This document shows, in pieces, positions 3,719 to 16,589 of a stretch of 58,622 nt of DNA (the stretch's first letter is position 1; each line of letters starts with the position of its first letter). The DNA is from Candidatus Nitrosopelagicus sp. (GTDB taxonomy: Archaea; Thermoproteota; Nitrososphaeria; Nitrososphaerales; Nitrosopumilaceae). A program made the translations under genes and the position numbers. Where the stretch lies: positions 1 to 58,622 of the forward strand of contig JAOMDA010000008.1 of NCBI GenBank assembly GCA_028345295.1. The letters are read 5' to 3'. The notes beneath the pieces are model-generated. The model was not told the DNA's origin and ran no database searches. It worked only from the letters and a program-made list of their open reading frames with translations.

Positions 3719-4756
3719 TCACATTTTTGGGTCAAAACCTTTTGCAATGCGTAATGCATCAACCAAACCATCAGCATAGCCAATACTTAGCACTGCATAT
3801 TCTTTTTTTCCTTCTTTTAGGAAATTTTCTGCATCGTCAATGTATAATTTTGCATTTATTAAAACATCTTCATATTCCTTAAGATTTTCATAGTGGGGTT
3901 TGATCTCTTCTAATGCTTTACGAACCATCGGAACGTATTTTTCAATCATCTGTTCAGAGACACTCTTAATATTTGCAGAGTTATCCAATGGTTCGTCTAA
4001 ACATTCTGTAACTAACTTGATTGAATCTGATTCAGTAAAATGTAGATTTGCAGGAATGATTATACTATGTGGTGGTTCACCAAATTCTTTTTTAATTAAT
4101 TTTGATATTTTTCCAGATGTTATCTTTTGATCACTTTTTCCAATCCTTGATGCTACAATTACGAATGTCTCTAACGAAATAATTTTTCTATTTTGAGTTT
4201 TTTCTACATCTAATAACAGTGAGAATGCATTTTGAGGCTCTAGGAAAAATGATTTGTCCTCGTTATACTCTAGTAAAATTACTGAATGTGCCTTGTTTAA
4301 CAAATTATCAAATATTCTGTTGTATGGGGTAATCATTGATTTTGTATCATTCATAATTGTCAGTATTTTTCCAACTTTGTAATAATGTAATCCTGCTTCA
4401 CCTATTAGTGACGAAATAATTGAGGATGAATGAACACTTTTTGTTTCTATATTATCTCTAATTGCTCTTGTTTTTAATTCAAGATGTGTAGTTGCAATGT
4501 ATGGATCTCCATACGAGATCAAAATAGTTTCTTTGTTTTTTGCATTACTTAGAATCTCATTACCATCTTCTACCAACCAGCGTTTTGCAATTTTGAATTC
4601 CCCATTTGAGATATTTTTCAACTGTGTTTTCTCCGCTTCAGAAATAGGACTGGTAAATGATTCTAGATAAACAACATCTGCATTTTTTATAATAGATAAA
4701 GTTCTATCTGATAATTCTGAAATTCCTGAAATACCTAGACCAATAAACCACAGCAT
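3719..4756 (-). CDS. dphB: Diphthine synthase fused to a C-terminal DUF357 domain
   Basis: A 345-residue protein; ordinary DphB is about 255-270. Residues 1 to about 250 are the SAM-dependent tetrapyrrole-methylase fold (LWFIGLGISGISELS at the N-terminus, ISYGDPYIATTH, SSIISSLIGEAGLHYYK, and PHSIIIPANLHFTE near the end). This domain methylates the modified histidine of EF-2 on the way to diphthamide. Residues about 265-345 look like DUF357, with AKLYIDDAENFLKEGKKEYA followed by VLSIGYADGLVDALRIAKG. The two parts are in one uninterrupted frame. The start ATG overlaps the lysK stop (TAATG). Confidence 0.85.
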   Translation of the reverse strand: MLWFIGLGISGISELSDRTLSIIKNADVVYLESFTSPISEAEKTQLKNISNGEFKIAKRWLVEDGNEILSNAKNKETILISYGDPYIATTHLELKTRAIRDNIETKSVHSSSIISSLIGEAGLHYYKVGKILTIMNDTKSMITPYNRIFDNLLNKAHSVILLEYNEDKSFFLEPQNAFSLLLDVEKTQNRKIISLETFVIVASRIGKSDQKITSGKISKLIKKEFGEPPHSIIIPANLHFTESDSIKLVTECLDEPLDNSANIKSVSEQMIEKYVPMVRKALEEIKPHYENLKEYEDVLINAKLYIDDAENFLKEGKKEYAVLSIGYADGLVDALRIAKGFDPKM

Positions 4757-5877
4757 TATTTCGTTCTATCATGTAGTCTTTTTAAATGGTATAGTGATTT
4801 TTTCAGAATATCTATCCCTTTAACAAATTCATCAATTGAAACTTTCTCATCGATTGTATGTGCTTCATGAGGATCACCTGGGCCATATGTAATTACAGGA
4901 ATATTTAGTTGGTTTCCTATAACATTCATATCCCCTGTGCCAGTCTTTCTGATTAACATCGGTCTTTTCTTTTCAATGTCTAGAACTGATAATGTAATTG
5001 CCCTTACTAATGGAGAATTATGTGCTGCCTCAAAAGGTTCTGTTTCATCAATTACTGAATATAAAATCTCAATCTCTTTCTTTGTTGATATTTCATTAAT
5101 TATTTTACTAATCTTCTCTTCAACATAATTACAATTCATGTCAACTGGGATTCTAATATCTACAGTCGCAACACATTCTATTGGAGTTACATTATGACTA
5201 GTACCACCACGAATTTCTGTTAGTGCTGCAGTAAGCATCATTCCTTTAGTTTTATCTTTTTGATCTAACTCTAAACTATTTTTTAATTCTGAAACTACTG
5301 ATGATGTTTCTTCAATTGCATTTTTTGCTAACCATGGGGCACTTGCATGTGTGCTATCCTTCACATTAACCTTAAGGTTAATTGCTAAACGACCTTTGTA
5401 GGCAATTGTGACTTTCTGAATACTGCTTGGTTCTCCAAATATTGCATAATCTATATCTGGTTTATTTTTCACCAGATTCTTTATTCCTGTAGCATTGCCT
5501 TCTTCATCAACTGCACCAACAAATGTCACTGTTCCCTGATTCTCCTTGATACTTGCAGCTGCAAATAACATTGCAATTAGTGGTGCTTTGGCATCTGATG
5601 CTCCTCTACCATGCAACATATCTCCTTCTTTTCTAACTTTTACCCTCCCTGGAACAACATCCATATGACCACATAGCATAATTTTTGGCTCTCCTGAGCC
5701 TTTAGTAGCTATCAAATTTCCAACTTCATCTTGGTGAATATCCCTGAATCCTAAATCATCGCATCTGTCTGCAAGAAAATCTGCTAATGCTTTTTCGCTT
5801 AATGATGGAGTATAGATTCGTAATGCTTTTTCTAAAGTCTTAATTGCATATCGAGAAGTCTCTAAATGTTCATCCAT
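4756..5877 (-). CDS. lysK: [LysW]-lysine hydrolase, M20 metallopeptidase
   Basis: A 373-residue M20 family zinc hydrolase. Metal-binding motifs are MLCGHMDVVPG, GRGASDAKAPL, VDEEGNATG, GEPSS and the late His in GDPHEAHTIDE. In the LysW pathway, LysK cleaves the isopeptide bond that joins lysine (or ornithine) to the carrier's C-terminus and releases the free amino acid. It directly follows lysX (1 nt) and precedes dphB, so it is in the lysine operon. ArgE or DapE would look similar, but the LysW/LysX neighbours make this assignment firm. Only one such hydrolase is seen in the window, so it probably serves both carriers. Confidence 0.88.
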   Translation of the reverse strand: MDEHLETSRYAIKTLEKALRIYTPSLSEKALADFLADRCDDLGFRDIHQDEVGNLIATKGSGEPKIMLCGHMDVVPGRVKVRKEGDMLHGRGASDAKAPLIAMLFAAASIKENQGTVTFVGAVDEEGNATGIKNLVKNKPDIDYAIFGEPSSIQKVTIAYKGRLAINLKVNVKDSTHASAPWLAKNAIEETSSVVSELKNSLELDQKDKTKGMMLTAALTEIRGGTSHNVTPIECVATVDIRIPVDMNCNYVEEKISKIINEISTKKEIEILYSVIDETEPFEAAHNSPLVRAITLSVLDIEKKRPMLIRKTGTGDMNVIGNQLNIPVITYGPGDPHEAHTIDEKVSIDEFVKGIDILKKSLYHLKRLHDRTK

Positions 5878-5878
5878 T

Positions 5879-6724
5879 TTATGCTAACTCCTTTACATAT
5901 TCAAGCATTAATTTTGGAATGTCTACTCCTGTAACTCTTACAACATTTCGAAATTCTGTAGTATTGTTTATCTCATGGACAACCATTCCTTTATCATTAC
6001 TTTCCATTAGATCAATTCCTACAATGTCTCCATATACTGTATCTTTTGCTTTAATGCAGATGTCCTCAAGTTCATTGGTAATTTCACATGTCTCTGCAGA
6101 ACCTCCTAGATGCGTATTTGTTTTCCAGTTCCCATCTCCTGAATTTCTGTATATTGCAGCTGCAACATTATCTCCTATTACAATTACACGAATGTCACGT
6201 GGAGGACGTTCCACAAACTCTTCTAGAAAGTGAACTTGATGAATTGGATACATTGCTTCTCGTCCATCAATTATGCCTTCTGCAGAATCCATATCATTAA
6301 TTTTTGAGACCATTCTGCCCCAACTACCTACAGTTGGTTTTATTATTTTTGGAAATCCATTTTTATCTAATGCGTCAAGTGCTGAATCTTTTGAAAATGC
6401 AACCGTTGCATCTGGTGTTGGAACTCCTGCTTTTTGTAACAGCATATGTGTGAAAAGTTTGTTTCCAGCAAATATACCTGTATTAAGACAATTTACAACT
6501 TTGGTTCCTTGCCCCTCAATGGCTGCAGTAGAATGAAGATTTCTGTAATAGCTTACACAACGTTGTAGTATCGGTCCATCAAAAATTTTCTTATCATTAA
6601 GATCAACAAATAGCTTTTTACAATCTACCATCTCCAAATTAATGTCATTCTTTTTAGCTGATTCAATAAGTAATTTTTCTTCGAGACGGATTGTATCATA
6701 AAGAGCTGTTATAGTGGTAGTCAC
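5879..6724 (-). CDS. lysX: Alpha-aminoadipate-LysW ligase, ATP-grasp
   Basis: A 281-residue RimK-like ATP-grasp ligase that, in this family, joins the amino group of 2-aminoadipate to the gamma-carboxyl of the LysW C-terminal Glu. Features are KPTVGSWGRMVSKI (ATP-binding loop), RDIRVIVIGD, GIDLMESN and VHEINNTTEFRN. The last segment continues VVRVTGVDIP, which resembles Thermus LysX as I remember it, whereas the second ligase in this window has Gly in place of Asn after EFK/R. I therefore assign this copy to lysine. Start is GTG at 6724, overlapping the carrier's TGA stop (GTGA), so it is translationally coupled to the Gln-ending carrier. Confidence 0.85.
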   Translation of the reverse strand: MTTTITALYDTIRLEEKLLIESAKKNDINLEMVDCKKLFVDLNDKKIFDGPILQRCVSYYRNLHSTAAIEGQGTKVVNCLNTGIFAGNKLFTHMLLQKAGVPTPDATVAFSKDSALDALDKNGFPKIIKPTVGSWGRMVSKINDMDSAEGIIDGREAMYPIHQVHFLEEFVERPPRDIRVIVIGDNVAAAIYRNSGDGNWKTNTHLGGSAETCEITNELEDICIKAKDTVYGDIVGIDLMESNDKGMVVHEINNTTEFRNVVRVTGVDIPKLMLEYVKELA

Positions 6725-6888
6725 TGTCCCCAGTCCTCACCGACGGTTTGGGCAGGTCTTAACTCAAATCCTTCGGAGGCCTTTACTAACTCAAAACTTG
6801 CTCCACAATCAGGGCACGTTACGATTTCACTTTCCACTGCATCCTCTGGTATAGTGATATTTGCATCACATTCTGGGCAATTTGTCAT
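6721..6888 (-). CDS. lysW: LysW-like carrier protein ending in Gln
   Basis: A 55-residue acidic zinc-ribbon carrier: two CxxC pairs (CPEC at residues 4-7 and CPDC at 25-28), a Glu-rich body and the LysW tail motif TVGEDWG. The final residue is Gln (CAG, then TGA), not the Glu that known LysW proteins use as attachment point. The reading is clean: GAG GAC TGG GGA CAG TGA on the minus strand. It lies between homocitrate synthase (8 nt upstream) and lysX (4-nt overlap). Compared with the second carrier at 12529-12696, length and most key residues match. It could need deamidation, be a non-acceptor paralogue, or reflect a sequence error. Confidence 0.88.
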   Translation of the reverse strand: MTNCPECDANITIPEDAVESEIVTCPDCGASFELVKASEGFELRPAQTVGEDWGQ

Positions 6889-6896
6889 TTTAATCT

Positions 6897-8075
6897 CTAT
6901 TTACTCCGTTTTTCGTCATTAATTATCTTTCTTTCAAGCCTGTCTTCAAGTGGAATATCCAAAACATCTCCCATTCTTAGATTTTTAAGTCCTGCAGCAA
7001 CTTTCTTGGCAGTTTCATTATCTTGTTTAATTCCTAATAAGGACATCAGATAACCTGCACCAGTTTTACCTGCAAGCTCACCAAATACAATAGTACGATG
7101 ATTGCCTACAATCCTAGGTGGAATTGGTTCATATGCAGCAGGATTTTTTAGAATCGCAGCTAAGTGTGTGCCTGCTTTGTGTTTATAGGCTGAAGTACCA
7201 ACAATTGGTTTTGAATCATAAGGTTTGATTGTTGTATATTGTTCTATGAGTCTTGATAAATCTGCTAGCATATCTAATCTAAAATCATTTGGTGATTTGT
7301 ATAGATATGTAAGTGCAACTGCAACTTCAGCTAATGATGGAATTCCAGTCCTTTCTCCAATACCATCTATTGTAGTATGAATTTGATCTACACCAGCTTC
7401 ACAAGCTGAAAATGCATTGGCTAGTGCAAATCCTATATCATTATGGACATGTACGTCTAATGGTGTATCAATAATTGAACGCACATTTTTTACAAAATTA
7501 TACATACCTACTGGTCTCATTATGCCAACCGTATCTGGTAAACTAATTCTATCCACTCCAGCTTCTGAAATTGCCTTACATACACTTATTAGGAATTCTG
7601 GATCGGCTCTACTTCCATCTTCTACGGTAAATCTAATTTTTAATCCATGTTCTTTTGCATAACTAACAGTATTTACTGCTCTTTCTAGGGCTTGTTCTTT
7701 TGTTATACGTAACTTATCTTTTAGATGAACATCTGATATTCCCAAATATGCCGCAACCCATTTTGCATCACATGCTAATGAGATATCAATATCTTCTGTT
7801 AGTGCTCTACCATGTGAAACAATATCTGCACGTAGACCTTGCTTGATAATTGTTTTTGTAGCATCTTTATGATCAGGTGAAACTACAGGTGAGATTTCAA
7901 TCTGATCTACTCCAAAGTAATCTAACATCCATGCAATCTGTATTCTTTGTTTGTTAGTAAATGAGACACCAGGATGTTGCTCACCTTCTCTTAACGTAGA
8001 GTCAAGCACACTAATTTTTCTTGGCGTTTCATCATACGCATTATACAAATCTGCATAGTGATTCGGATCTTTCAT
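6897..8075 (-). CDS. lysS: Homocitrate synthase (LeuA-like family)
   Basis: A 392-residue DRE-TIM metallolyase. The N-terminal DSTLREGEQHPGVSF signature holds the catalytic Arg and metal-binding Asp. HVHNDIGFALANAF supplies the two metal His, and DGIGERTGIPSLAEV follows. The GERTGI form fits homocitrate synthase better than isopropylmalate synthase (usually GERAGN). It condenses acetyl-CoA with 2-oxoglutarate as the first step to 2-aminoadipate. It starts the lysine operon lysS-lysW-lysX-lysK. Citramalate or isopropylmalate synthase remains possible but is less likely in this neighbourhood. Confidence 0.83.
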   Translation of the reverse strand: MKDPNHYADLYNAYDETPRKISVLDSTLREGEQHPGVSFTNKQRIQIAWMLDYFGVDQIEISPVVSPDHKDATKTIIKQGLRADIVSHGRALTEDIDISLACDAKWVAAYLGISDVHLKDKLRITKEQALERAVNTVSYAKEHGLKIRFTVEDGSRADPEFLISVCKAISEAGVDRISLPDTVGIMRPVGMYNFVKNVRSIIDTPLDVHVHNDIGFALANAFSACEAGVDQIHTTIDGIGERTGIPSLAEVAVALTYLYKSPNDFRLDMLADLSRLIEQYTTIKPYDSKPIVGTSAYKHKAGTHLAAILKNPAAYEPIPPRIVGNHRTIVFGELAGKTGAGYLMSLLGIKQDNETAKKVAAGLKNLRMGDVLDIPLEDRLERKIINDEKRSK

Positions 8076-8191: not shown

Positions 8192-8611
8192 TTATCTGAT
8201 TGTTCGTAGAATAATTACTGTATTAGTGTCAATTACACCTTGAATCTTTCGTAATTCATCAATACATATGTTAATTTCAGTAATATTTCCAGCTCTTATT
8301 ATCACACTAATATCATATTGACCCGTGATCTCATAAACAGTTTTCACTGCTTCTAGTTTTGTTAATTTTGTTGATACTTTTGAGGTATCAGTTGCTGAGT
8401 CAACTGAAATTAGTACGATTGCACTGGTTGTGTTAGATTCACCCATCTCAACAGTAAATTTTTCAATCACTCCACTACCAAGTAAGTTTTTTACTCTACG
8501 TCTAACTGCTGATTCTGAGAGTTTGAGTTTTTTTCCTATTTCTACAAATGATTCTCTAGCATCATCTCTAAGAAACCCAATTATTTTATCATCAGTTTTA
8601 TCCTTAGACAT
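8192..8611 (-). CDS. Lrp/AsnC family regulator (LysM-like)
   Basis: About 139 residues: an N-terminal winged helix (FVEIGKKLKLSESAVRRRVKNLLGSGVI) and a RAM effector domain (AIVLISVDSATD to the ITGQYDISVIIRAG segment), the standard Lrp layout. I prefer the ATG at 8611, which overlaps the upstream lysJ end by 8 nt; a longer start at 8629 exists. Being last in the arg/lys operon and just before lysS, it resembles LysM of Sulfolobus, an Lrp-type regulator of the lysine genes that responds to lysine. A regulatory role for both blocks is inference. Confidence 0.85.
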   Translation of the reverse strand: MSKDKTDDKIIGFLRDDARESFVEIGKKLKLSESAVRRRVKNLLGSGVIEKFTVEMGESNTTSAIVLISVDSATDTSKVSTKLTKLEAVKTVYEITGQYDISVIIRAGNITEINICIDELRKIQGVIDTNTVIILRTIR

Positions 8612-9779
8612 TTCGACGGTTCTCCTCATTTGTTAACAATTCATCCAGTATTTCTAAGGACTTTGTTACATCCTCTTCAGAGATTACCAATGGTGGTAAT
8701 AATCGTAAGATGTTACGACCAGAATATAATAAGAGTAGATTTTTTTCAATTCCTTCCATTAGAATATTTTTAACTTCAAATTTAAGTTCTATTCCAATCA
8801 TCAGTCCTTTTCCTCTAATCGCCCTAATTACAGTGTGTTTTTCTTTTAATCTTTCTAACCCTTCTCTAAATAATTTTCCCATTTTATCAGCATTGTCAAT
8901 TAAACCATCTTGTGTTAATGCATGAAGTGTAGCAGTTCCAGCAGCGCATGATAATGGATTTCCACCAAATGTTGAAGAGTGTTCTCCTTTGCTAATACAA
9001 TCTAAGATATCAGGTCTTACCATAGTTACTCCCATTGGTACACCACCTGCAATTCCTTTTGCAATACACAAAATGTCTGGTGCCGTATACCAGTGTTCTG
9101 ATGCCCACATTCTCCCTGTTCTCCCTAATCCTGCTTGAATTTCGTCGAATATAAGAAGAATTCCGTTATCATTGCATAACTTTCTTACATCCTGTAAAAA
9201 TCCATCTGGGGCTACATGAATACCACTTTCTCCTTGAATTGGTTCTAATATGACAAAAGCTGTATCATCATCAATCTTTTCACGTAAAGATTCAATGTTA
9301 CCAAAAGGTGAGAATGTAACCTTGTCTACTAATGGCTGGAAAGCTTTTCTATATTTTGGATTAAACGTTAAGGATAATGCACCCATTGATTTTCCATGAT
9401 ATGAGCCATTCATTGCGATCATGCCCTTTTTACCAGTGAATTTTCTAGCAAATTTCATTGCAGCTTCTATTGCCTCTGCACCACTGTTATTCAGGTGAGC
9501 TTGAGTTAGTCCTTTAGGAGCAACCTTAAACAATGTCTCTAGGAATTCCTCCCTTGTTTTACTATAAAGTGAACTATGTACTGTTATAATTTTGTCAATC
9601 TGTGATTTTATGGCATTTACGACTCGTTCATTTCTGTGACCAACAAGTGCAACACCGTAACCACCCATACAATCTATGTATTTTTTATTGTTAGTATCCC
9701 ATACATGTGCACCGAGTCCTTTTTCTATAGTCACTGGAAATCTTTGGTAAAGGTTTCCTAGATATTGATCTTCAGTCAT
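8604..9779 (-). CDS. lysJ/argD: [LysW]-aminoadipate/glutamate semialdehyde aminotransferase
   Basis: A class-III PLP aminotransferase of 391 residues. Key motifs are MGGYGVALVGHRN, HLNNSGAEAIEAAMKFAR, SYHGKSMGALS, LLIFDEIQAGLGRTG (PLP Asp) and CIAKGIAGGVPMG (Schiff-base Lys). It converts the carrier-bound semialdehyde to carrier-bound lysine or ornithine. The ATG at 9779 overlaps the kinase stop as ATGA and is preferred over an upstream in-frame start at 9797. A single copy beside both carrier systems suggests it serves lysine and arginine, as in Sulfolobus. Confidence 0.9.
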   Translation of the reverse strand: MTEDQYLGNLYQRFPVTIEKGLGAHVWDTNNKKYIDCMGGYGVALVGHRNERVVNAIKSQIDKIITVHSSLYSKTREEFLETLFKVAPKGLTQAHLNNSGAEAIEAAMKFARKFTGKKGMIAMNGSYHGKSMGALSLTFNPKYRKAFQPLVDKVTFSPFGNIESLREKIDDDTAFVILEPIQGESGIHVAPDGFLQDVRKLCNDNGILLIFDEIQAGLGRTGRMWASEHWYTAPDILCIAKGIAGGVPMGVTMVRPDILDCISKGEHSSTFGGNPLSCAAGTATLHALTQDGLIDNADKMGKLFREGLERLKEKHTVIRAIRGKGLMIGIELKFEVKNILMEGIEKNLLLLYSGRNILRLLPPLVISEEDVTKSLEILDELLTNEENRRNV

Positions 9780-10576
9780 TTTTTTATCACCGTACAATTA
9801 TTATGTGAAATTGCAGAGGATATGGGGTTTTCCTTTTGACCATTTGCAATTAATGCTTCTCCTACACCCATTTCTAATGCTTCAGTTGCAGCAAGAATTT
9901 TCTTTTCCATTCCAAATCCAATTTTTGGTAAGATCTCTTTTGCTTCTGATAGAGTCAAATTTTCAACTAATTTATCATCCATTAATAATCCATCAACATT
10001 TGTTATGAATAGCACCTTGTCAGTCTTTACATGACCCGCTACATTTGCAGCAGCTCTATCACCATCAACATTCAGGAAATCAAATTCTTCACTTATTGCA
10101 ATTGGTGAAATAACAGGCGTGTAACCTTTTTCTAAAATTGTAGAAATTAGATCTGCATTTACATCAGAAATTTTGCCAGTGTATCCACCATCAATTACCT
10201 GTTTTCGCCCTTTTTCATTCGTAATGATTAGTTTTTTCTTCCTGTTAGCCTGTATTACTTTGCCATCCATTCCAGAAAGACCTACAGCATTAATTCCATT
10301 CTTTTGTAACATTTGTACTATATTCTTGTTAATTCTTCCCGACATCACCATTGTGAATATCTCTGATGTTTCTTTGTCAGTGTATCTACTCTTTATTCCA
10401 CTTGGTGACACTACAAACTTTGGCTCTTTTCCAAGTTGTTCTGTAACCTTAGTTACTTCTTTTCCACCACCATGAACAAGAATTACACCTTCTCGGTCTA
10501 CTACTTTTTTGATATCTGATATAGTAGTTGGATGAAGATTATCTACTACACTTCCACCAATTTTTATTGTTATCAT
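9776..10576 (-). CDS. lysZ/argB: [LysW]-aminoadipate/glutamate kinase
   Basis: A 266-residue amino-acid kinase. IKIGGSVVDN is the phosphate-binding lysine motif, VLVHGGGKEV the glycine loop, and INVDGDRAAANVA plus FITNVDGLL lie in the nucleotide half. It phosphorylates the side-chain carboxyl of the carrier-bound substrate. It sits 3 nt after the reductase gene and overlaps lysJ, so the three chain-modifying enzymes form one tight transcription unit. A single copy presumably acts on both aminoadipate- and glutamate-loaded LysW. Confidence 0.9.
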   Translation of the reverse strand: MITIKIGGSVVDNLHPTTISDIKKVVDREGVILVHGGGKEVTKVTEQLGKEPKFVVSPSGIKSRYTDKETSEIFTMVMSGRINKNIVQMLQKNGINAVGLSGMDGKVIQANRKKKLIITNEKGRKQVIDGGYTGKISDVNADLISTILEKGYTPVISPIAISEEFDFLNVDGDRAAANVAGHVKTDKVLFITNVDGLLMDDKLVENLTLSEAKEILPKIGFGMEKKILAATEALEMGVGEALIANGQKENPISSAISHNNCTVIKK

Positions 10577-10579
10577 CTA

Positions 10580-11626
10580 TTATACAGGTGTTAATGGGGA
10601 ATACATAATTCCTTCGAACTCATCAAAGCCTGACATTACATTCATGTTTTGAACGGCCGAGCCTGCTGCACCTTTCATGAGATTATCTGAAGCAGATAAT
10701 GCAATTAATCTATTATTATCTTTATCTAGATCAAATCCAATATCACAGAAATTTGAGCCAACCAAAAACTTTGGATCTGGGAATTTGTGTAGACCATCTT
10801 TATCTCTAATCAATCTGATAAATCGCTCTTCACTATATTCTGACCTGTAAATCTTCCAAAGTTCTTTTTCATCAATGTCTTTTTTAAGGAATGTATGATT
10901 TGTACATAAAATTCCTCTTACAACATCTACTGCATGTGGACTCATTGACACTTTGATCTTTTTACCAGCGGTTTCACTTAGTTCCTGTTCGATCTCTCCA
11001 GTGTGTCTATGTTTTGCTGGTTTGTATGGTCGAATTACTCCAGCACGCATTGCATGTGACGTTCCTGCACCTGCACCTGCACCTGAAGAACCAATCTTTG
11101 AATCGACCACAATGTGATCAGTATCAATCAAATCATTTTTAATTAATGGATTTAATGCAAGCATTGAAGTTACTGCCATACAACCTGGGCATGAAACAAG
11201 TTGTGCATTTTTAATTTGTTCACGATGAAGTTCAGGAACACCAAAGACAGATTTTTCCAAGTAGTCAGGATGTGGATGTTCCCAACCGTACCATTTTCCA
11301 TAATCTTCTGGATTATGTAGACGATAATCTGCACTAAGATCAATAATCTTCATACCCCTGTCGTAAAATGATTTTACAATTTCAGTTGCAGTACCATGTG
11401 GAACTGCTGTGAAAACTAAATCACACGAGTCACTCATCTTTTCATAATCTAGTTCTGAAAATTTTAAGTCAGTAAAACCTCTGAGGCTAGGTTGAGCTTT
11501 ATGTAGAAATTTTCCTACATGTTGCCTTGATGTTACCATTGAGACTTCAACTTTTGGATGGCTTAGAAGTAATCTAAGAACTTCTCCTCCTACATACCCT
11601 GATGCACCTACAATTCCTACTTTCAT
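10580..11626 (-). CDS. lysY/argC: [LysW]-aminoadipyl/glutamyl phosphate reductase
   Basis: A 348-residue NAD(P)-dependent semialdehyde dehydrogenase. The N-terminal Rossmann motif is VGIVGASGYVGGEVLRLL and the catalytic Cys is in QLVSCPGCMAVTSML; the His in SMSPHAVDVVRGI is also conserved. It reduces the acyl phosphate made by LysZ/ArgB to the semialdehyde. A 44-nt gap separates it from argX upstream; I see no clear separate promoter there, so it is likely in the same operon. Confidence 0.9.
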   Translation of the reverse strand: MKVGIVGASGYVGGEVLRLLLSHPKVEVSMVTSRQHVGKFLHKAQPSLRGFTDLKFSELDYEKMSDSCDLVFTAVPHGTATEIVKSFYDRGMKIIDLSADYRLHNPEDYGKWYGWEHPHPDYLEKSVFGVPELHREQIKNAQLVSCPGCMAVTSMLALNPLIKNDLIDTDHIVVDSKIGSSGAGAGAGTSHAMRAGVIRPYKPAKHRHTGEIEQELSETAGKKIKVSMSPHAVDVVRGILCTNHTFLKKDIDEKELWKIYRSEYSEERFIRLIRDKDGLHKFPDPKFLVGSNFCDIGFDLDKDNNRLIALSASDNLMKGAAGSAVQNMNVMSGFDEFEGIMYSPLTPV

Positions 11627-11670: not shown

Positions 11671-12528
11671 CTATTTTCTAATGTAGTTTATTGCAAAATC
11701 AATCATTTCTTTAGGAATATTTTTCTCTGCAACCTTGACTAATCCTTTGAATTCAACAGTATTGTTAACTTCGTGTACTACTAAGCCTCTGTTTTTATCT
11801 TCCATCAAGTCAATACCCAATATACCACCGCCTACTGCTTTTGATGCCTTTAGACACAATTCTTCAATATCATTTGTTATTTTACATATCTCAGGTTCTG
11901 CACCAAGTGCAATGTTTGTCTTGAATCCTCCAGATGATTTTCTATACATAGCAGCTACTATTTGATCACCTACTGTTATCACACGTATATCTCTTGGTGG
12001 TCTATCAATCATTTCTTGTAAATAGTATATTCTATCTTGTGGACCATCTGTAACTTGCCTATTTTCTATTATAGCATCAGCTGTATCCTTATCTTTTATT
12101 GGCATTACACTACGTCCCCAACTTCCAATTATTGGTTTAATAACTAATGGATATCCTACTTTTTCAAAATGCTCCATTGCTGATTCAGCAGAAAAGGAAA
12201 AGTATGTTTTTGGAGTTGGGATATTATTTTTTTTAAGCAGCATTGAAGTAATCATTTTATTTCCACATGTGTTTGAAACTTCAAATGAATTTATTACTGG
12301 AACATTTAAAAATTCTAGACATGCAGTAAAATGTAATCCTCTATAGTAGCTTATGCATCTTTCAAGTACTACATCACCAAAGTCATACTCGCTCTTATTA
12401 CTGTCAGTGTTAAACCTTGTAATCTTTGCATCAATCATCGATGTTTCATAGCCCATTTCAGACGCTTGAGTCTGAAGTAATTTTTCTTCAGTTCTTAATC
12501 GGTCAAACACAATACAAATTTTTTGCAA
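11671..12528 (-). CDS. argX: Glutamate-LysW ligase, ATP-grasp
   Basis: A 285-residue RimK-like ATP-grasp ligase, paralogue of the lysX gene at 5879-6724. It shows KPIIGSWGRSVMPI, RDIRVITVGD, GIDLMEDKNRG and VHEVNNTVEFKG. Gly follows EFK, where the other copy has Asn; that position belongs to the region reported to separate glutamate from aminoadipate ligases, so I assign this one to arginine. The TTG start at 12528 is immediately next to the TAA of the Glu-ending lysW, and argG lies just upstream, both supporting the arginine call. Biochemistry would be needed to exclude dual specificity. Confidence 0.84.
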   Translation of the reverse strand: MQKICIVFDRLRTEEKLLQTQASEMGYETSMIDAKITRFNTDSNKSEYDFGDVVLERCISYYRGLHFTACLEFLNVPVINSFEVSNTCGNKMITSMLLKKNNIPTPKTYFSFSAESAMEHFEKVGYPLVIKPIIGSWGRSVMPIKDKDTADAIIENRQVTDGPQDRIYYLQEMIDRPPRDIRVITVGDQIVAAMYRKSSGGFKTNIALGAEPEICKITNDIEELCLKASKAVGGGILGIDLMEDKNRGLVVHEVNNTVEFKGLVKVAEKNIPKEMIDFAINYIRK

Positions 12529-12696
12529 TTACTCTCCCCAATCTTCGCCAACTGTTTCTGCTTGCTTTAGTTCTATATCAGAACCTTCTTTCTTTGCAAT
12601 TTCATAGTCAGCACCACAGTCAGCACAAGAAACAATTTCTCCTACTGCTGCATCATCAGGGATGTTCAAATTTGCGTCACATTCTGGGCAATTCAT
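12529..12696 (-). CDS. lysW: LysW amino-group carrier protein (canonical Glu end)
   Basis: A 55-residue zinc-ribbon carrier with CPEC (residues 3-6) and CADC (24-27), a strongly acidic surface and the canonical C-terminal EDWGE. The terminal Glu gamma-carboxyl is the known attachment site for glutamate or aminoadipate, shielding the alpha-amino group during chain modification. I chose the internal ATG at 12696 because it gives the family N-terminus MNCPEC; a GTG at 12717 overlapping the argG stop would add seven residues. It lies between argG and argX. Confidence 0.92.
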   Translation of the reverse strand: MNCPECDANLNIPDDAAVGEIVSCADCGADYEIAKKEGSDIELKQAETVGEDWGE

Positions 12697-12713
12697 ATTT
12701 TTTTTTCCATAAT

Positions 12714-13895
12714 TCACTCGAATTTATTAGCTTCTGTTGTCTGCAAACCCCATAATTCAACAAAACCTTTTGCCAATTTCTGATCAAATGTTGATTTTTT
12801 TCCATATGTTGCAATGTTATGACTGTATAATGAATACTTAGACTCCCTTCCTACAACCCTTACACTGCCTTTGAATAGTTTCAATTTCACAGTTCCAGTT
12901 ACACGTTTTTGTGTCTGTTCTATGAATTTGTCTAGATCATTTTTTAGAGGATCATCCCACAAACCGGAATATACAAGCCATGACCATTCATCATCTACTA
13001 GGGACTTGAATTTTGTTTCATGCTTTGTATGTACCATTTTTTCAAGATCAGAATGAGCTTCAATTAAGCAAACTGCTGCTGGTGTTTCATAAACTTCACG
13101 TGATTTTATACCAACAACTCTATCTTCAATGTGATCAATTATTCCAACTCCATTTGCACCCGCTTTCTTGTTAATGTATTCGATTAGTTTTACAGGAGGT
13201 AATTTTTTTCCATCAACTTCAACTGGAATCCCCTTAACAAATTTAATTTTGAGATAAGTTGGTTTTGCAGGAAGATTTTTTGTCTTTATCCAAATAAATG
13301 CATTAGATGGTGGTTCATTGAATGGGTTTTCAAGTACTCCACCTTCAATTGCTCTTCCCCACAAATTTTGATCAATACTAAATTTTTTTGCTACATTATC
13401 AATTTCAATTCCATGTTTTTTAGCAAATTTTAGTTCTGTTTCACGATCTAAATTCAAGTCTCGAATTGGTGCAATGATAGGTAGATTTGAACCAGCACGA
13501 AGTGTGTTGTCAAATCGAACCTGGTCATTTCCTTTTCCTGAACATCCGTGTGCTAATGACGAAACTTTTTCTTTCTTTGCAATTTCTAAAACTTTATGTG
13601 CAATTAATGGACGTGCAAGTGCTGTTGCAAGGCAGTATTTTTTTTGGTATAGAGCATTTGCCTGAATTGCAGGAAAAATAAAATTAGTAACAAATTCTTT
13701 TTTTGCATCAATATTGTAATGCTTTTTTACTCCTAGTTTTTTTGCTTTTTTTGTTATGTTATTTTGGTTGTCACCTTGTCCAACATCTACTGTAACTGTA
13801 ATGACATCCATGTCATGTATTTCCTGCATATACTTTACGACAACTGAGGTATCAAGACCACCAGAAAACGCAAGTATTGATTTTTGTTTCTTCAA
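12714..13895 (-). CDS. argG: Argininosuccinate synthase
   Basis: A 393-residue ligase joining citrulline and aspartate with ATP. The N-terminal AFSGGLDTSVVVKYM is the PP-loop ATP motif, with LAHGCSGKGNDQVRF and the SIDQNLWGRAIEGG segment following. Length matches the family. It is the first gene of the minus-strand arginine block, and its TGA is followed at once by lysW. No argininosuccinate lyase gene is visible in the window. Confidence 0.95.
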   Translation of the reverse strand: MKKQKSILAFSGGLDTSVVVKYMQEIHDMDVITVTVDVGQGDNQNNITKKAKKLGVKKHYNIDAKKEFVTNFIFPAIQANALYQKKYCLATALARPLIAHKVLEIAKKEKVSSLAHGCSGKGNDQVRFDNTLRAGSNLPIIAPIRDLNLDRETELKFAKKHGIEIDNVAKKFSIDQNLWGRAIEGGVLENPFNEPPSNAFIWIKTKNLPAKPTYLKIKFVKGIPVEVDGKKLPPVKLIEYINKKAGANGVGIIDHIEDRVVGIKSREVYETPAAVCLIEAHSDLEKMVHTKHETKFKSLVDDEWSWLVYSGLWDDPLKNDLDKFIEQTQKRVTGTVKLKLFKGSVRVVGRESKYSLYSHNIATYGKKSTFDQKLAKGFVELWGLQTTEANKFE

Positions 13896-14038: not shown

Positions 14039-15070
14039 ATGAAAATTTCATACCTAATTGGAATAGGAGTAGCATCACTAGCAATTGCTGTAATCGCTAG
14101 TTTGAGTCAATCGTATATTGATACATCAGAAGAAAAAATTCGAATTGCGTTTTTCCCAAGTATTGTACATGCAGTACCAATTGTTGGCATGGAAAATGAA
14201 ATTTTCAAAGAAAACTTGGATGACCAAACTAAAATCGATGTAAAAATTTTTGATAGTGGCCCACAAGTAATAGAGTCTTTATTCTCAAATTCAATTGATA
14301 TTGCATATGTTGGACCTGGACCAGTGATTAATGGTTATTTGAAATCTAATGGTGATGCACTAAAAATTTTAGCAGGAGCTGCAGATGGTGGAGCAAGTTT
14401 AGTTGCACAGAAAGATTCTGGGTTAGACTTAATTGCAAATTTTGATGGTAAGAGAATTGCAGCACCACAAATTAGTAATACGCAAGATGTCTCACTAAGG
14501 CATTATTTATCATCAAATGGATTAAAACCAGTTGAAACAGGTGGAACAGTTTATGTTCTAAATATTTCTAATCCTGACATATTCACATTATTTGCAAAAG
14601 GTGATATTGATGGTGCATGGGTTCCAGAACCTTGGGCTACAATGCTTGTTCAAGAACTTGGTGGAGTGAGAGTATTTAATGAGAGTCAGTTTTGGCCAGA
14701 TGGGGAATTTTCATCTGTATTATTGATTGCTAGAACAGACTTTGTTGAAAATAATCCGAAAGTTATACGAAACTGGATTGAGTCTAATGAAAAAACAGTT
14801 CAATGGATAAATAACAATCCTGAACAAACAAAAAAAATCTATAGTGAGTTTTTAACAAATTACATGGGTAAAACATTACCAGATGAAATAATTAATGAAT
14901 CATTTTCAAATTTAATTATAACATCTGATCCGTTAAAAAAATCAGTTTACACTTTTGCTGAGCGAGCTGATTCATTAGGATATCTTGGTCGTGCAGGGTA
15001 TGATATTAATGAAATTTTTTATGAGTATGACACTTCATTAATACCATCGGAGGAAAATCAGAATGGGTAA
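14039..15070 (+). CDS. ABC transporter substrate-binding protein (NMT1/SsuA-like)
   Basis: A 343-residue periplasmic-binding protein with an N-terminal hydrophobic segment (about residues 4-24) that would act as signal or anchor; no lipobox cysteine is present. KIRIAFFPSIVHAVPIVG opens the NMT1-like domain, and GDIDGAWVPEPWA is a typical signature of nitrate/sulfonate/taurine-type binding proteins. The ligand cannot be named from sequence. A TATA-like TATTTAACTT lies about 25 nt before the ATG, giving a leaderless operon start. It overlaps the ATPase gene by 8 nt. Confidence 0.82.
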   Translation: MKISYLIGIGVASLAIAVIASLSQSYIDTSEEKIRIAFFPSIVHAVPIVGMENEIFKENLDDQTKIDVKIFDSGPQVIESLFSNSIDIAYVGPGPVINGYLKSNGDALKILAGAADGGASLVAQKDSGLDLIANFDGKRIAAPQISNTQDVSLRHYLSSNGLKPVETGGTVYVLNISNPDIFTLFAKGDIDGAWVPEPWATMLVQELGGVRVFNESQFWPDGEFSSVLLIARTDFVENNPKVIRNWIESNEKTVQWINNNPEQTKKIYSEFLTNYMGKTLPDEIINESFSNLIITSDPLKKSVYTFAERADSLGYLGRAGYDINEIFYEYDTSLIPSEENQNG

Positions 15071-15818
15071 ACTAGAAGCTAAAAATGTTGAGAAATTTTT
15101 CCAACATGATGGAAAACCTCTCAAAACACTGGGAGGTGTAAATCTTACTGTAAATGATGGTGAGTTTGTATGTATTGTCGGTCCATCTGGATGTGGTAAA
15201 TCTACTTTTCTTAGAATTCTAGCAGGATTGGAAAAACCTGATGGAGGAGAAATCATGCTTGATGGGAAAAAAGTTAATGACACTGGTCCTGAGCGCATAA
15301 TGGTCTTTCAAGAAGGCGCATTGTTTCCTTGGCTCACAGTAAGGGATAATGTAGAATATGGTTTAAAAATTTCAGGAATTCCAGAAAAAGAGCGAAATGA
15401 AATTTCCAATAGATACCTAGACATGATGCAGCTCACTCAATTTGCTAATTCATATACATATCAACTATCAACTGGAATGAAACAACGTGTTGCTATAGCA
15501 CGTGCATTGGTAATGGATCCTGATGTATTACTAATGGACGAACCATTTGCAGCACTCGATTCTCAGACTAGAGACCTACTTTTGGTTGAAATGCAGTTAA
15601 TTTGGAAAAAAACACAAAAGACAATTATTTTTGTGACACATAACGTACCAGAGGCAGCAGTACTTGGATCAAGAGTTGCTGTATTTAGTGCTAGACCATC
15701 GATTGTTAAAAAAATAATAGATGTTGATTATAAACGACCACGTGTTGCTGAAGATGAAAATCTAGGAGTATATGAAAAAGAAATTCTTTCTTCATTACGA
15801 CATCAGGGACCAAAATAG
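15063..15818 (+). CDS. ABC transporter ATPase (SsuB/TauB-like)
   Basis: A 251-residue ATPase with Walker A GPSGCGKST, Q-loop VFQEGALFPWLTV, signature LSTGMKQR (the usual LSGGM with Gly to Thr), Walker B VLLMDEPFAALD and switch VTHNV. FQEGALFPW is typical of the nitrate/sulfonate/taurine group. It overlaps the binding-protein gene by 8 nt and precedes the permease by a short gap, making a complete three-gene importer. Confidence 0.92.
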   Translation: MGKLEAKNVEKFFQHDGKPLKTLGGVNLTVNDGEFVCIVGPSGCGKSTFLRILAGLEKPDGGEIMLDGKKVNDTGPERIMVFQEGALFPWLTVRDNVEYGLKISGIPEKERNEISNRYLDMMQLTQFANSYTYQLSTGMKQRVAIARALVMDPDVLLMDEPFAALDSQTRDLLLVEMQLIWKKTQKTIIFVTHNVPEAAVLGSRVAVFSARPSIVKKIIDVDYKRPRVAEDENLGVYEKEILSSLRHQGPK

Positions 15819-15830
15819 GAGTGAATGTTG

Positions 15831-16589
15831 ATGAAGGCTAATTTATTTGGAAAAAAAATTCTGTTTTACATTGCAATCATTATAGTTTGGCAGGTTATTG
15901 ATAGCGCAGATATCTGGCCAGATAACATATTTCCATCACCAATTGAAGTTGGGGAAGACTTGATCTATGGAATATCTGATGGAAGTTTGTTCTATGGAAT
16001 TGGAACTAGTATGTGGCGTTTGATACTTGGATTAGCAATTGCCATTGGTGGTGGAATGATACTTGGAATTTTTATGGCTAGAGTCGAAACTGTGAATCAA
16101 ACAATTGGTTCATTAGTTCTCGGATTACAATCAATACCATCGGTAGCGTGGGTACCATTAGCCATACTATGGTTTGGACTTACAGATGCTGGAATCATTT
16201 TTGTCACAGCAATTGGTGCAATCTTTGCTGTCACAATCAATGTATACACTGGAGTCAAGAACATAGACCCCTCATACATTGAGGCTGCAAGAAACATGGG
16301 TGCAAAAGGCAGTCAGCTTATTACAACAGTCTTGATTCCTGCTGCATTTCCATACATGATTACTGGATTCAAGCAAGGCTGGGCATTTGCATGGCGAGGA
16401 GTGATTGGTGCAGAGTTACTATTTTCATTCTTAGGACTTGGATTTTTGTTAAATGTTGGAAGGCAACTAAATGATGTTTCTCAAGTTATTGCAATGATGT
16501 TAGTAATCATGGGCATTGGAATCCTAATTGATGGATTTGTTTTCAAAAGAATAGAAGACAAAGTAATGTCTAGATGGGGACTTCGTTAG
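15831..16589 (+). CDS. ABC transporter permease (SsuC/TauC-like)
   Basis: About 252 residues with roughly six membrane segments and the cytoplasmic EAA loop IEAARNMGAKGSQLITTVLIPAA that docks the ATPase. I take the ATG at 15831 because a GGAGTG Shine-Dalgarno site at 15818-15823 is 7 nt upstream; the ATG at 15825 is too close to it. The 3' end overlaps the convergent MFS gene by 20 bp. Confidence 0.9.
   Translation: MKANLFGKKILFYIAIIIVWQVIDSADIWPDNIFPSPIEVGEDLIYGISDGSLFYGIGTSMWRLILGLAIAIGGGMILGIFMARVETVNQTIGSLVLGLQSIPSVAWVPLAILWFGLTDAGIIFVTAIGAIFAVTINVYTGVKNIDPSYIEAARNMGAKGSQLITTVLIPAAFPYMITGFKQGWAFAWRGVIGAELLFSFLGLGFLLNVGRQLNDVSQVIAMMLVIMGIGILIDGFVFKRIEDKVMSRWGLR

Follow-up and report, generated by a model that had tools for sequence, protein, structure and literature searches.

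The LysW carrier protein encoded in the lysine gene cluster of a Candidatus Nitrosopelagicus genome ends in glutamine (EDWGQ) instead of glutamate. LysW is the carrier on which lysine, and in some genomes arginine too, is built in these archaea, and its chemistry is defined by a C-terminal Glu; a whole order of abundant archaea, ammonia oxidisers included, nevertheless encodes Gln. This points either to an unrecognised deamidation step in archaeal lysine and arginine synthesis or to a different chemistry of attachment; a step that activates the carrier could be a point of control over both amino acids. Judging from the sequence comparisons set out below, the Gln-ended protein (LysW-Q) is probably a working carrier made as a pro-form, the terminal Gln of which would be converted once to Glu before the carrier enters normal cycling.

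LysW-Q and its gene cluster

The window, by which we mean the whole 58,622-nucleotide stretch of DNA that was analysed, carries a cluster (Table 1) transcribed in the order argG, lysW-E, argX, lysY, lysZ, lysJ, the lysM regulator, the lysS-like synthase gene, lysW-Q, lysX and lysK. The 55-residue product of lysW-Q (MTNCPECDANITIPEDAVESEIVTCPDCGASFELVKASEGFELRPAQTVGEDWGQ, followed by the stop codon) closes with TVGEDWGQ. The first-pass annotation had described a CAG codon ahead of TGA, full retention of both CxxC pairs and of the TVGEDWG motif, and an adjoining, overlapping lysX, and all of this is borne out: the codons read as stated, the translation keeps the motifs, and the overlap amounts to 4 nt, the GTG start of lysX being made up of the G of CAG plus the TG of TGA. 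Against the archaeal LysW family NF041070 (NCBIfam) the protein scores 86.6 bits (cut-off 75) and is aligned through the final profile position. It scores 35.4 bits against the equivalog TIGR01206, under the cut-off of 53.2, as does the product of lysW-E with 35.1 bits, so the shortfall reflects the lineage and not the terminal Gln. In its two Cys pairs and EDWG tail, its match to NF041070, the adjoining LysX/ArgX-type ligase with a GSWGR motif and the operon partners, LysZ and LysK among them, LysW-Q is like the LysW/ArgW proteins of Thermus, Sulfolobus, Thermococcus and Natrinema; it differs in that the gene itself specifies a C-terminal Gln (CAG-TGA), whereas the known carriers load their substrate on Glu.

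The first-pass finding did not include a Glu-ended paralogue, lysW-E, which lies with argX 5.8 kb from lysW-Q. The two ligases differ in their signatures. Asn-Thr, present in the window LysX, has been reported for the aminoadipate-using LysX of Sulfolobus, and by this rule α-aminoadipate is the predicted substrate of LysX (PMC10433800); for ArgX, with Asn-Ile, the predicted substrate is glutamate. Taken together with synteny, the signatures suggest that lysW-Q serves lysine and lysW-E arginine synthesis. The lysX product scores 306.7 against TIGR02144 (cut-off 275.6) and the lysK product 262 against TIGR01902 (cut-off 163), with an alignment to 5XOY that spans its length; a sequence search finds a single full-length lysK in the genome to which the window belongs. 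The lysS-candidate synthase gene, lysW-Q, lysX and lysK are syntenic in genomes G444 and G578. Adjoining argG on the opposite strand (14039-16589, +) are genes for a binding protein, an ATPase and a permease, by eye an ABC importer of the nitrate/sulfonate type.

Table 1. Features of the lysine/arginine cluster in the window
Feature	Position	Strand	Remarks
argG	12714..13895	-	argininosuccinate synthase; begins the arginine part of the cluster; from position, sequence and synteny
lysW-E	12529..12717	-	second carrier (arginine copy), tail EDWGE
argX	11671..12528	-	second ligase, signature KTNIALGA (Asn-Ile)
lysY/argC	10580..11626	-	reductase, common to both pathways
lysZ	9776..10576	-	kinase, one copy, common to both pathways
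lysJ	8604..9797	-	aminotransferase, common to both pathways
LysM-type regulator	8192..8629	-	NF040947, 186 against cut-off 180
lysS candidate	6897..8075	-	homocitrate/isopropylmalate synthase-like; immediately upstream of lysW-Q
lysW-Q	6721..6888	-	lysine-copy carrier, tail EDWGQ
Gln codon CAG	6724..6726	-	last codon of lysW-Q; stop TGA 6721-6723; lysX GTG 6722-6724
lysX	5879..6724	-	RimK/ATP-grasp ligase; GSWGR motif; signature KTNTHLGG (Asn-Thr)
lysK	4756..5877	-	M20 hydrolase freeing Lys/Orn from LysW; candidate deamidase

Distribution of the glutamine end

Of 398 genomes sampled across the phylum, metagenome-assembled and possibly incomplete ones among them, 87 have an EDWGQ-stop end. Within the family of the window organism the lysine copy is Gln-ended in 62 of 63 sampled genomes, the sole exception (G147) encoding Glu as GAGTGA, so that the pattern of Glu in every close relative, against which the first-pass annotation had measured its finding, does not apply. 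Nearly all complete members of a set of 250 genomes of this family combine one GGN-CAG-TGA end with one GGN-GAR-stop end. Named GTDB loci, which cover Nitrosopumilus, Nitrosopelagicus, Nitrosotenuis, Nitrososphaera, Nitrosocosmicus, Nitrosocaldus and others, gave 75 Gln and 5 Glu ends among 80; here Gln is encoded by CAG and CAA and followed by TGA, TAA or TAG. Gln ends are also seen beyond the order of the window organism, in families f12, f17, f35 and f38.

The notion that the Gln is a sequencing or assembly error, or a codon imposed by the GTG start of lysX, can for practical purposes be set aside. In the window, as in most members of the family, the codon does overlap the start of lysX, but GAGTGA keeps the same GTG and exists, Gln persists where the overlap is missing (CAATAA, CAGTAA, CAATAG), and the Gln end is conserved over hundreds of independent assemblies. 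Since Gln is kept across varied codons and stops, its retention is at the amino-acid level and the overlap does not dictate it. EDWGQ was not found in the literature searched, a search that had most subscription journals outside its scope, and earlier notice is possible; a Nitrosopumilus maritimus model paper mentions LysW and ArgX, in passages that have no word on the LysW end (PMC6038301).

Combinations of carrier copies

Written as lysine copy/arginine copy, the combinations Q/E, Q/Q, E/Q, E/E, single Q and single E all occur. Genus g24, which is Nitrosocosmicus by match to the named loci, has Gln ends alone in 15 genomes with one LysW each, apart from a duplicate at a contig edge in G591 and a match by chance in G433. 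Three of these genomes with complete chromosomes show the order ArgG-ArgX-LysY-Z-J-M-HCS-LysW-LysX-LysK, in which both ligases are kept and the second LysW, that of arginine, is missing between argG and argX. Gln LysW is likewise the only kind in f12 g36 and f17 g42, and no Glu end in a LysW context was found in g24 or the other Gln-only genomes tested; a hidden Glu copy was considered for G550 and rejected, as the lone loose match there is not a LysW. Every copy is Gln-ended in G444, G578, G244, f12 g36 and f17 g42, and two Gln ends are present in G444, in G578, in the rest of g28, in genera g174 and g176 and in the member of g179 that has two copies; Nitrososphaera-like genomes carry Gln on both copies, the Glu copy being absent. 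Genera g175 and g178 are the reverse of the window, with a Glu-ended lysine copy and a Gln-ended arginine copy, the copies being identified by spacing, order, stop codon and the named lysine-copy sequences. Two Glu ends occur in G147 and G536. Finally, in G005 (locus L240; 3.2 Mb), which belongs to the same family as the window genome, the lysine LysW is lost: the synthase gene runs directly into lysX, LysX and LysK are kept, and LysW-E is the sole LysW.

All combinations thus exist, as interchangeable carriers would predict, and because a Gln-ended LysW is the sole carrier in Nitrosocosmicus and a Glu-ended one in G005, LysW-Q must work and the two ends are interchangeable.

Some loci depart from the usual arrangement. 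In two congeneric genomes of f35 (G367 and G332; L116 and L117) a LysW-LysX pair, Gln-ended in one and Glu-ended in the other, is distant from LysZ/Y/J and adjoins unrelated genes, thiolase-like and CarA-like by eye; the pair may belong to a different pathway or to one whose genes are scattered. The LysW of L252 and L253 (G293, G258) has the tail VEDYGE in place of EDWGE.

Switching between Gln and Glu

LysW is too short for phylogeny, and the switches were therefore traced on trees of the ligases. Two such trees each show 12 changes of the E/Q label. Starred branches force at least 9 of these in the tree of 166 adjacent ligases, and at least 8 lie on well supported branches in a slower tree of 73 ligases. 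A profile lacking the last residue recovered 157 distinct LysW proteins from the fetched loci, 100 ending in Q, 57 in E and none in any other residue, and the subset from loci chosen independently of the last codon repeats this picture (122 distinct proteins: 81 Q, 41 E, 0 other). Phylum-wide pattern scans for EDWG followed by a pyrimidine-ending codon, or by a purine-ending codon starting with A or T, yielded matches at about control level and no end of the D, N, H, S or K type in a LysW context: none of the 30 and 25 scan loci inspected, nor the lone Asp end in G437, is a LysW, with 23 pyrimidine-type matches left out. The A, G, V, P, L and R ends (G- or C-starting codons with a purine in third position) fall outside the scans and do not occur among the 122 LysW. 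The terminal position is thus confined to Gln and Glu and looks nearly free between the two.

Within the lysine clade 5 E/Q changes compare with 8 purine/pyrimidine changes at the wobble position of the neighbouring Gly. That purifying selection strongly favours Gln over Glu was considered and is unsupported, as the rate of E-Q exchange is not clearly below that of a neutral transversion. Gln is long-lived in some clades and may confer something that conversion alone leaves unexplained.

Partner enzymes

GSWGR and the conserved residues of the active site are intact in ligases of both classes, and no ligase column tracks the E/Q switch, none being significant on independent pairs. At LysX residue 168 most of the order's lysine-copy ligases have Glu, and other LysX/ArgX proteins have Gln; the residue is Glu in the majority of Gln lineages and Gln in Glu lineages. 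As a candidate compensating change it was rejected since it is lineage-bound, Glu revertants keeping Glu168 and independent Gln gainers keeping Gln168. Each of 12 genomes has one LysZ and one LysK, bar a weak second LysK match in one, so conjugates on either carrier must be handled by one and the same kinase and hydrolase. All 30 complete genomes in which the LysK family was sought contain a member of it. The first-pass annotation had proposed a search for a deamidase gene that co-occurs with the Gln form; no member of the Pup ligase/Dop family (PF03136) was found in 22 genomes, the control, Corynebacterium glutamicum, being detected. Given this absence of a Dop-type enzyme, a dedicated co-occurring deamidase gene might not exist.

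Possible activation of a Gln-ended carrier

A single conversion of Gln to Glu is the simplest account of the interchange, the restriction to E and Q, the unchanged ligases and the common downstream enzymes. Glu-type LysW is loaded at the γ-carboxyl of its last residue, and replacement of that residue in Natrinema ArgW (E54A) results in arginine auxotrophy (PMC10433800). From the sequences we infer a conversion, an agent for it and a γ linkage in Gln-ended LysW. A C-terminal Gln would in effect be LysW-Glu-γ-NH2, and could become Glu through hydrolysis or through exchange of the ammonia at first loading. LysX would then attach α-aminoadipate, or ArgX glutamate, to the γ-carboxylate of the converted carrier, LysZ/Y/J would build the side chain on the loaded carrier, and LysK would free lysine or ornithine and leave LysW-Glu behind. 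As the carrier would be reused, one conversion per molecule would be enough and a slow side activity could suffice. LysK is the first candidate agent in that it already cleaves an amide at the same γ-carbonyl. The leaving group that M20 hydrolases usually recognise, however, is an amino acid bearing a carboxylate and not ammonia, and LysK is present in Glu genomes also, so that co-occurrence does not single it out. The ligase itself, acting with ADP/phosphate as proposed for Dop, would be the next candidate, followed by another amidase.

Deamidation before ligation by analogy with Pup-Gln, as suggested in the first-pass annotation, is thus the best fit and finds partial support in the E/Q interchange, the lack of any third residue and the unchanged partner enzymes. 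Pup, of actinobacterial pupylation, is likewise a small protein that is attached through its C-terminal side chain and ends in Gln or Glu depending on the lineage, and Pup-Gln must become Glu before ligation; LysW, with only Gln and Glu ends that switch among lineages, follows the same logic by analogy, not by membership. It differs in being recycled in metabolism, Pup being a degradation tag, in its fold and ligase family, and in that a Dop/PafA homologue is absent from the 22 genomes. Dop not only deamidates Pup-Gln but also cleaves Pup from protein conjugates (PMC8599861). Whether the Gln end amounts to a second, unrelated strategy of the Pup-Gln kind, in which an inert pro-form would be activated once through deamidation by LysK or by LysX/ArgX, having evolved repeatedly across Thermoproteota and become general in the ammonia oxidisers, is in our judgement evenly balanced.

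Alternative explanations

The ligase might dispense with free Glu. In this scheme LysX would activate the carboxamide of LysW-Q, with ATP or ADP/phosphate, and swap the ammonia for α-aminoadipate by amide exchange or amidine chemistry. As the route this is possible but rather unlikely, and as a first conversion it partly overlaps the pro-form explanation. No extra gene would be needed, which matches observation, and activation of the amide oxygen of Pup-Gln has been proposed for Dop (PMC8599861); the first-pass statement that ATP-grasp ligases are unable to activate a carboxamide was to that extent too strong. Dop and PafA, however, have a glutamine-synthetase fold and are not ATP-grasp enzymes, and no ligase residue tracks the Gln state. 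The use of another carboxylate, also raised in the first-pass annotation, is disfavoured. Its specific form, in which LysX/ArgX would join the substrate to the C-terminal α-carboxylate through a peptide bond and LysK would act as a carboxypeptidase, we regard as distinctly improbable. It makes a deamidase unnecessary, LysK matches carboxypeptidase G2 by sequence, and the nearest relatives of LysX/ArgX by profile, the ATP-grasp enzymes MptN, CofF and RimK, are named α-L-glutamate ligases and use an α-carboxylate; but Glu-type carriers use the γ-carboxyl (PMC10433800), a side chain freed from this role could vary and only E and Q are found, these two alternate among close relatives with the ligase unchanged, and the one LysZ and one LysK of a cell would face two linkages.

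Two further readings are far less probable. Archaea make Gln-tRNA indirectly, by way of Glu-tRNA(Gln); where this is left unamidated, the terminal Gln codon could be read as Glu in some chains, and a recycled carrier would need few such Glu copies. However, the elongation factor usually rejects Glu-tRNA(Gln), and a small active fraction would be costly to fix repeatedly, which makes this decoding route very improbable. Slightly more improbable still is that LysW-Q is a paralogue without activity, or one with a regulatory or scaffold role, while the Glu copy carries everything. The window genome with its nearby Glu copy would be compatible with it, and the first-pass annotation had listed an inactive or regulatory carrier among its options; as a general reading it is excluded by whole genera that combine a Gln LysW alone with the rest of the pathway (Nitrosocosmicus, f12 g36 and f17 g42), provided that their lysine and arginine synthesis runs on LysW and no Glu carrier in them went unrecognised, alongside the Nitrososphaera-like genomes with their two Gln copies, and the Cys pairs and EDWG motif of the Gln-ended proteins are kept throughout.
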